Of a DNA stretch of 40,418 bases, positions 34,007 to 36,397 are shown piece after piece. Location: the IMG/VR virus record IMGVR_UViG_3300020472_000062, positions 1-40,418 of that record, one strand, 5' to 3'. A model generated the notes under the pieces. That model saw only the letters and a list, made by a program, of their open reading frames with translations, was not told where the DNA came from and made no database searches. Made by a program: the position numbers and the translations under genes. Every line of letters starts with the position of its first letter. The first letter of the stretch is position 1. Origin of the DNA: a virus.

Positions 34007-34092
34007 TGGTGGGCAAGGTAGGATTTGCACCTACTATGTCATTCGACATCTGATTTACAGTCAGATTGCTTATCTAGATTGCATACTTGCCC
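34007..34092 (-). tRNA. tRNA-Tyr(GUA)-like gene with encoded CCA and unusual elbow
   Basis: Minus-strand sequence folds as a class II tRNA: acceptor GGGCAAG/CTTGCCC, D stem TGC/GCA, anticodon arm TCTGA CTGTAAA TCAGA (anticodon GTA), a long variable arm TGTC/GACA as bacterial tRNA-Tyr has, a T arm GTAGG/CCTAC, discriminator A and encoded CCA. Odd points: the D loop (AATCTAGATAA) lacks the usual GG, and the T loop is TGCAAAT, so position 55 is G, not T. The D-loop/T-loop contact would not be normal. It may supplement Tyr decoding or be a tRNA-like regulator. Confidence 0.85.
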
Positions 34093-34485: not shown

Positions 34486-35100
34486 CTATCTCCATATACT
34501 TTCATGTACAGCAGATACATCGAATGGTGTAGGAAAATGTTTCGGATAGTCTACTGATCTGTCAGTACACCATACATTCCACAGAAACTTACATCCTCCT
34601 ACATCTTTACATAGTTTAATATATTCTATTGCCTTCTTACGCTTCACTGCATCTGAATTGCCAGATGTTTGAAACTTTGAAGGTGTACCAACAGATGCGT
34701 CAACATCTGGTAGAAATTTACGGATATTGTGAACATCCATGCACCCTACCTTTCCTGCTACCAATTGGCAAGTAAAACCTGCTTTTGGCAGTCCTAGACC
34801 CGGAACTTCGAGGAAAAGAAGAATCATGTCAAGTTCCATATCCTTTTTATTGGAACGTATAATCTGCATCATACGATTGTAAAGATCTTTCCTATTCTTT
34901 CTTACATAGTCTAGACCAGTCTTTTTATTTCCCCAAATCCAAGAAGAGTTTAAGCCACGTTTACGATATTCTCGCATCATACGAGGTAACATACTCGTCT
35001 GTACTCTGATAGTTGAGAATACAAAAGCTATCACTAATTCTAAGTTTTTAGGACTCGTCTGTGCAAATCTACGAACCATCGGATTATGATGATTGTACAT
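34486..35100 (-). CDS. Putative HhH-GPD DNA glycosylase-like early protein, 204 residues
   Basis: Residues 97-130 read FLEVPGLGLPKAGFTCQLVA, then GKVGCMDVHNIRKFL. This matches the pattern of HhH-GPD glycosylases such as endonuclease III (LPGVGRKTA, about 15 residues, then VDTHVxR): a helix-hairpin-helix, a conserved Lys (K106) and the catalytic-position Asp (D122). Surrounding residues are helical, as the family requires, and basic. No FeS cluster cysteine set is seen. It could repair or remove modified bases in phage or host DNA. Assignment is from motif reading only. Confidence 0.6.
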   Translation of the reverse strand: MYNHHNPMVRRFAQTSPKNLELVIAFVFSTIRVQTSMLPRMMREYRKRGLNSSWIWGNKKTGLDYVRKNRKDLYNRMMQIIRSNKKDMELDMILLFLEVPGLGLPKAGFTCQLVAGKVGCMDVHNIRKFLPDVDASVGTPSKFQTSGNSDAVKRKKAIEYIKLCKDVGGCKFLWNVWCTDRSVDYPKHFPTPFDVSAVHESIWR

Positions 35101-35218: not shown

Positions 35219-35279
35219 AAAATTTACTAGTTCCCATCATAGAGGAATAAACAACTTTAATGTTAAAGTTTAGTTAGAA

Positions 35280-35408: not shown

Positions 35409-35417
35409 AATTATTAT

Positions 35418-35666
35418 TTATCCTCTTGGTGAATGATACACATCAAAATGTGTAGCTTCTTTTTTTATGCAATGCATTGGATGGAACTTCCTTCCACCAT
35501 GAATATTTCTCCAACGAACACGTATATCTGAACGGTTGCATTTAAACCTTGCAACTGCTAATCTACGAGCAAATTCCAAATTAATTTCTGAATATGGAAC
35601 CATTCTTGACATAGACACATATGGACGTGAGTCCTGTGTAGTTGTTAATATTTCTGCTGTATTCAT
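35418..35666 (-). CDS. Unknown basic early protein, 82 residues
   Basis: The product starts MNTAEILTTTQDSRPYVSMS and is Arg-rich in its centre (EFARRLAVARFKCNRSDIRVRWRN), with a His-rich C-terminus (GGRKFHPMHCIKKEATHFDVYH). Basic character with His and Cys suggests nucleic-acid contact, but no zinc pattern is complete. A GGAAGGAA site precedes the ATG. A small hairpin (CTAGT...TTCCT/AGGA...ACTAG, 35679-35707) sits in its leader. Confidence 0.7.
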   Translation of the reverse strand: MNTAEILTTTQDSRPYVSMSRMVPYSEINLEFARRLAVARFKCNRSDIRVRWRNIHGGRKFHPMHCIKKEATHFDVYHSPRG

Positions 35667-35713: not shown

Positions 35714-35742
35714 ATCAGTTTGTATCTGTTATGGATCATAGC
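35714..35742 (-). repeat. 3' arm of a 29-nt inverted repeat flanking two early genes
   Basis: This 29-base segment is the reverse complement of 36329-36357 with a single mismatch (28 of 29). Between the arms are exactly the 72- and 116-residue genes. In the transcript the arms could form a very long stem that loops out both genes. Confidence 0.9.
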
Positions 35743-35749
35743 AGGTTTA

Positions 35750-36100
35750 TTAATCTAATATAGTTGATTTGTTAGGGTCAACTTTAAAGTAACCATTCCC
35801 TTTTTCACCTACTATTGTGGAATTAACCACTTCTGTAGGATGTATTGTAATAAATTTAGCTGAATCTATTACATTTTTTGCGTACTCATCTCCCAGTTCC
35901 CATGATCCATGAGTATGTGGAGATTTAACTGCTACAAACCATCTAGCAAGTGGGTTTGCTTTCTCTTTACTTGGTGCTTGGTATTTTTTTAGAACTCGCC
36001 AAGTCCACAAGTTATTAGCAGTTGTGTACGTTTCGTAAGGGTTGTCAACATTACGCATCTTACCACAAGGATTTTTCTCCCTAACTTTTCTAGTTGCCAT
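35750..36100 (-). CDS. Unknown early protein of marine phages, 116 residues
   Basis: Contains NPYETYTTANNLWTWRVLKKYQ and PLARWFVAVKSPHTHGSWELGDEYAKNVI. From memory, this type of sequence (YETW, WRVLKKYQ, ARWFxAVxSPxT, ELGDxY) recurs in small unknown proteins of marine podoviruses and other marine phages. Soluble, alpha/beta, no catalytic motif visible. It overlaps the preceding gene by 11 bases. The inverted-repeat arm lies 8 bases after the stop. Confidence 0.8.
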   Translation of the reverse strand: MATRKVREKNPCGKMRNVDNPYETYTTANNLWTWRVLKKYQAPSKEKANPLARWFVAVKSPHTHGSWELGDEYAKNVIDSAKFITIHPTEVVNSTIVGEKGNGYFKVDPNKSTILD

Positions 36101-36308
36101 ATTTTCTCCTTCTTAAACGAAAATGTTTGCGTTTAGACATGGCATTCCAGAAACCTGACATTTTAGGTTTTACTCCTTCTGGAAGTGATGGTATATTGAC
36201 CACTCTCAGTTCAGTTGTATTCTGAATTTGCAACTCTGCAAGTTGAACTAGCGACATAGTTGTATCAAGTGCTAGTCCTCTTGGCTCATTGTATTTGAAT
36301 CTAGCCAT
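36090..36308 (-). CDS. First early gene, unknown basic protein, 72 residues
   Basis: The product starts MARFKYNEPRGLALDTTMSL and ends in a strongly basic tail (SKRKHFRLRRRKYGN), with a central helix around QLAELQIQNTTELRVVN. A GGAGTAGAT ribosome site precedes the ATG. It is the first clear gene after the non-coding region and therefore likely among the first expressed on infection. No homologue is recognised. Confidence 0.72.
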   Translation of the reverse strand: MARFKYNEPRGLALDTTMSLVQLAELQIQNTTELRVVNIPSLPEGVKPKMSGFWNAMSKRKHFRLRRRKYGN

Positions 36309-36310
36309 AT

Positions 36311-36397
36311 CTACTCCATAGTGATAGAGCTATGATCCATAAAAGATACAAACTGATAAACTCCAGATTCAATTTTCAAAGATCTAAAAAACTTCAT
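36311..36397 (-). CDS. Possible leader peptide, 28 residues
   Basis: A frame from ATG 36397 to a TAG at 36311 starts MKFFRSLKIESGVYQFVSF and ends just before the start of the first early gene. It spans the 5' inverted-repeat arm. There is no good ribosome site before it, so it may be chance; the amino acid pattern looks protein-like. Kept at low confidence. Confidence 0.3.
   Translation of the reverse strand: MKFFRSLKIESGVYQFVSFMDHSSITME
36329..36357 (-). repeat. 5' arm of a 29-nt inverted repeat flanking two early genes
   Basis: Begins 21 bases upstream of the first early gene start and is complementary to 35714-35742 (28 of 29 positions). It covers the region just before the ribosome site, so pairing within the mRNA could affect translation of the 72-residue gene. 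Confidence 0.9.

Follow-up and report, generated by a model that had tools for sequence, protein, structure and literature searches.

The early region of the virus described here raises the question of why two small genes should be enclosed, exactly and by themselves, between the arms of a long inverted repeat, and whether such a repeat acts in RNA or in DNA. The window analyzed (the whole stretch of DNA) is a 40,418-bp IMG/VR virus record of T7-like type, belongs with a family of uncultured marine phages, and has the early genes concerned on its minus strand. The 5′ arm of the repeat (stem 1) is at positions 36329–36357 of the minus strand and ends 20 nt before the ATG of a 72 amino acid early gene (36308–36090). 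The 3′ arm is at minus-strand positions 35714–35742 and begins 7 nt past the stop codon of a 116 aa early gene (36100–35750). The two open reading frames overlap by 11 nt and the loop between the arms is 586 nt. The first-pass annotation had described the arms as reverse complements at 28 of 29 positions and the enclosed interval as holding these two genes only; both descriptions are correct, and the minus-strand ORFs of 72 and 116 aa are all that is found between the arms. The lone mismatch is a U·C located mid-helix.

The score of stem 1 is 31.4; when the 4.26-kb early region was dinucleotide-shuffled 60 times, as a rough control, the best score was 21.0. A chance origin of the stems is ruled out by the shuffles together with the scarcity of comparable stems elsewhere (~1 Mb of related contigs). 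When the sense strand of the entire 40-kb window is scored with tolerance for wobble pairs, only two stems reach a score of 21 or more. The second of these, with a score of 26.4, had been missed in the first pass. Its 5′ arm (35709–35681, minus strand) starts 4 nt after stem 1, its 3′ arm is at positions 35253–35225 (minus strand), and it encloses the next gene, which encodes 82 aa (35418–35666, minus strand). The 82-aa protein is C-terminally shorter than its orthologues, and the 3′ arm is 164 nt past the stop codon of the shortened gene. At positions 35415–35254 of the window the early end of the gene relative to the orthologues is seen, and the 164 nt up to the 3′ arm are of different sequence. 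This 164-nt stretch displays a 10-bp closing helix around AGUAGAGUG/CACUCUACU, the stability of which is not unusual as judged by shuffling.

The genes of 72 and 116 aa belong to no database family, with no match in PHROGs or Pfam, to transposases included, and tblastn searches with three stem-unit genes against cultured phages gave no match. A transposon with terminal inverted repeats was ruled out as a candidate: copies lack the same repeats and the enclosed genes have no transposase match (PHROGs, Pfam).

The window carries the T7-like genes for a single-subunit RNA polymerase, primase-helicase, ribonucleotide reductase, large terminase, T7-like endonuclease and SSB. The terminase shares ~57–62% identity with the terminases of marine pelagiphages, roseophages and others, and the polymerase is less than 40% identical to those of the listed cultured phages. 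The early region begins with the two stems, which have the terminase gene on one side and the polymerase gene on the other. Other features are found nearby. A structured non-coding RNA (35218–35124, minus strand) is located between stem 2 and the gene for a 204-aa protein. It is highly conserved, has ends that are closed by a terminal helix which covaries (AGUAGCGUG/CACGCUACU or AAUAGGUGUG/CACACCUAUU), and has no Rfam match up to E = 5. It is also present in the related contigs L003, L006, L012, L013, L027, L028, L030 and L031 and is absent from L002, L004 and L005. The 204-aa protein (34486–35100, minus strand) has relatives in 49 loci and no match in Pfam or PHROGs; its PGLGLPKAG stretch is reminiscent of helix-hairpin-helix motifs. 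The early region also has a tRNA-Tyr gene with a GTA anticodon (34007–34092, minus strand), and a search for the host by way of this phage tRNA-Tyr in 289 genomes of one class gave no identification.

Relatives were gathered with the polymerase and the 82-aa, 204-aa and 72-aa proteins as queries, which gave more than 50 further contigs. Among the related IMG/VR contigs, more than 20 have between one and three stems in tandem at this location, and every stem surrounds one or two small early genes; several contigs are near-duplicates, and contig counts therefore do not represent independent events. In close relatives (polymerase identity 85–89%) the location is shared and the number of tandem stems is again one to three, with arms that differ in sequence. 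The distant relatives L241, L245, L248 and L256, with a 204-aa protein of ~65% identity, have only one stem, which is of 25 bp and encloses one gene, and one further stem is found in L271. Most relatives at ~49–59% polymerase identity have no detectable stem, the exception being L019. Comparable stems were not found in the early regions of HTVC031P, CRP-361, LUZ100, HTVC109P, RHEph01 and the fosmid phage AP013544.

The geometry of the stems was measured on 21 curated examples. The helices are 22–32 bp, the loops are 195–586 nt, and the start codon is 12–38 nt past the 5′ arm. The distance from the stop codon to the 3′ arm is 7–22 nt, with the exception of the shortened 82-aa gene of the window (164 nt). 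Consecutive stems are usually separated by 3–7 nt, the extremes being a 2-nt overlap and a gap of 31 nt. The content of a unit may vary: in L002 and L004 the stem holds the 72-aa gene alone, and a homologue of the 116-aa gene is outside any stem.

The first-pass annotation had suggested, as one possibility, a long-range RNA stem that loops out an mRNA. This is strongly supported by covariation of orthologous arms, by a wobble bias specific to the sense strand and by the predicted fold. Comparison of relatives shows that the arms are conserved as a pair, with pairing kept and compensatory changes present. In the stem-2 ortholog set (8 distinct sequences), double-sided changes occur in 11 of 26 pairs and standard pairs are found in 95% of cells. 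The covariation score of the set was reached by none of 500 shuffles, and when the partner is shifted by 1–3 columns pairing falls to 42–48%. The distant set, with 3 distinct sequences, has double changes at 7 of 25 pairs, and all cells pair. When the whole region is folded, every tested helix is present in the MFE structure with a mean pair probability of 0.81–1.00.

Departures from Watson-Crick pairing were counted in 35 stems with G-U and A-C penalized equally, which gave 63 G-U and 9 A-C (nominal binomial probability 2e-11, shared ancestry ignored). Five of the nine A-C mismatches come from one unrelated L241 repeat. The remaining mismatches are U·U or U·C, mostly near the helix center; a helix usually has one such central pyrimidine-pyrimidine mismatch, and some stems have none. 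Since the departures are mainly G-U and rarely A-C, the selected object is the sense-strand RNA. It is thereby established that the stems are sense-strand RNA helices which surround gene units, are conserved and covary; this conclusion is independent of what is proposed below for RNase III and boxA. L241 also has a separate inverted repeat (2464–2494/2608–2638) upstream of its boxA-like element; the mismatches of this repeat are mainly A-C, so that opposite-strand RNA would give the better pairing.

A boxA-like sequence (UCUUUGAAAAUUGAAUC) is located directly 5′ of the first stem. In the window the element is TCTTTGAAAATTGAATC at positions 36366–36382 (minus strand), 8 nt upstream of stem 1, and this sequence or a close variant is conserved ahead of the first stem in nearly every related contig that includes the region. 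In the distant set the helix starts within the last four bases of the element. The element follows a sigma-70 promoter in several relatives, e.g. TTGATA/TATAAT in L002, L004 and L006; no consensus promoter was found at the element in the window. In L243 and L244 (around 3556 and 4037) a boxA-like element occurs together with a TATAAT, and a long-range stem was not detected within 3.3 kb.

Related to possible function, the stems are probably RNase III processing stems of the rRNA leader-trailer type placed on phage mRNA, perhaps with assistance from Nus factors. A probability of about 0.6 is given to this reading, in which we infer both the cleavage and the boxA function. Weighing against it are L243 and L244 with their boxA-like element and no detected stem, the stems that have no central mismatch, the lack of a consensus promoter at the element in the window, and the negative exact searches described below. 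Host RNA polymerase would start just upstream of the first stem, and the boxA-like leader would recruit the host rRNA-type antitermination complex (NusB/S10 and partners). The tethered leader would keep each 5′ arm close to the polymerase until the 3′ arm emerges, so that each helix pairs the 5′ and 3′ flanks of one unit (one or two genes) with the coding sequence looped out. Host RNase III would then cut the helix, and every unit would come away from boxA as an mRNA of its own, with its ends in duplex. The benefit may be in mRNA stability or translation. A boxA-bound complex can repress nearby translation, as with suhB and lambda N (PMC5725501), and it may be speculated that cutting of the first helix could free the mRNA from such repression.

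The element upstream of the first stem is probably a boxA. Only its TCTTTGA core and the GAA close by resemble alphaproteobacterial boxA, and TCTTTGA followed by GAA is found at a comparable position in some alphaproteobacterial rRNA leaders and spacers (L210, L212, L217); the exact phage-type sequence was not found in rRNA operons, and the boxA reading is for this reason only probable. Searching for exact 15- and 17-mers of the phage boxA-like sequence gave no match inside rRNA operons, and exact boxA-pattern scans of bacterial genomes gave matches at unrelated loci. These negative searches would fit a reading in which RNase III processing is right and the element is unrelated to Nus factors, being for example a conserved leader or start-site sequence. 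That reading is credible but unlikely, as the TCTTTGA core and the downstream GAA are common to several alphaproteobacterial rRNA leaders and spacers, and the place of the element between promoter and helix matches that in an rRNA leader. The fuller proposal, that the first genes are run as an imitation rRNA operon in which a boxA leader captures the host antitermination and RNA-folding complex and RNase III excises end-protected mRNAs at serial helices, is tentative and is rated slightly short of even odds.

The helices may also stay uncut, with 5′-3′ pairing that loops each mRNA and protects its ends or controls its translation, in the manner of the hok-type fold-back or of icaR 5′-3′ UTR pairing. 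The arms are immediately outside the ribosome-binding site and the stop codon, as such a role would have it, and PMC3868564 documents translation control through 5′-3′ UTR pairing for icaR. However the main Shine-Dalgarno sequence is outside the helices and is left uncovered, which makes simple occlusion unlikely, and a nearly perfect duplex of 25–30 bp is an expected substrate of RNase III (PMC4990558; established enzymology). A tandem arrangement with only a few nt between units also suits a role in separating them better than one in controlling a single unit. Uncut helices are on these grounds considered rather improbable. Joining of the ends by the stem for a ligase-made circular mRNA, circularization having been raised in the first pass, is permitted by the geometry, but it is very improbable: no RNA ligase was identified in the scanned part of the genome, and the helices are near-continuous, without a bulge-helix-bulge arrangement.

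A role of the arms in DNA, as ends of a mobile cassette or as recombination sites that move or invert genes, is hardly tenable, for although L002 and L004 are near-identical around the boxA-like element and L004 has one extra complete unit, both arms included, that is missing at the same spot in L002, and although first-unit arms are alike in L006, L019 and L271, arms differ from unit to unit within one genome, gene orientation is constant, no transposase or recombinase is seen near the arms, and their tolerance of G-U and rarely of A-C is a sense-strand wobble that DNA sites would not need. Thus the mobile two-gene cassette suggested in the first pass is retained only in that whole units are cleanly gained or lost, as between L004 and L002; the arms are not transposon ends, because their sequence is unit-specific and no transposase is seen.

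Long-range helices that bracket individual genes are well known in ribosomal RNA; for phages, full-text searches of an open-access library found no report of such stems. If RNase III processing with a boxA leader is the correct reading, the virus would express proteins via the host route of rRNA transcription and processing. The stems would then offer a small natural system in which to ask how, as transcription proceeds, an antitermination complex assists pairing between distant stretches of RNA, and T7-like phages would be seen to have a further means of splitting the early transcript.

In T7 itself, the RNase III sites of the early region are hairpins that form locally, from one gene to the next. 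Dunn and Studier (1973) reportedly found that RNase III cuts the T7 early RNAs. The early transcript would here likewise be split into separate mRNAs by double-stranded elements. Unlike the T7 sites, the phage arms are 195–586 nt apart with genes between them, and the helix spans the unit and joins its flanks. The lambda nut/N leader has a boxA in an early phage transcript before the first gene, and the comparison is made on the boxA-like element alone. In lambda the RNase III site consists of a local hairpin. RNase III modulates lambda N-mediated repression according to a report cited in PMC5725501. As in icaR of Staphylococcus aureus, the 5′ untranslated region pairs with the 3′ untranslated region of the same mRNA; unlike icaR, the phage helices are serial, bracket whole gene units and leave the main Shine-Dalgarno sequence uncovered.

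In size the phage helices match both the rRNA leader-trailer helix and the stem of the Coxiella 23S intervening sequence. The latter is a 444-nt element that contains an ORF and has a 28-bp closing stem with one mismatch and one bulge, and the stem is cut in vitro by Coxiella and E. coli RNase III (PMC4990558). The Coxiella sequence is located in rRNA and is removed as waste, whereas the excised piece of the phage would be a useful mRNA. In rRNA operons boxA is closely followed by a helix of 25–40 bp that overlaps the site cut by RNase III; in a looping model, the helix forms since the leader is tethered to the polymerase through boxA as the RNA between the arms loops out (PMC10250234). A boxA-like element is found shortly before the first phage stem, and core similarity to alphaproteobacterial rRNA leaders makes it a candidate boxA. 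As with the leader-trailer helices of pre-16S and pre-23S RNA, the phage helices of 22–32 bp join the flanks of a looped unit and covary. No rRNA was detected in the window with Rfam, and the stem loops hold ORFs. Unlike the rRNA operon, the phage loops out protein-coding mRNA, with up to three units in tandem.
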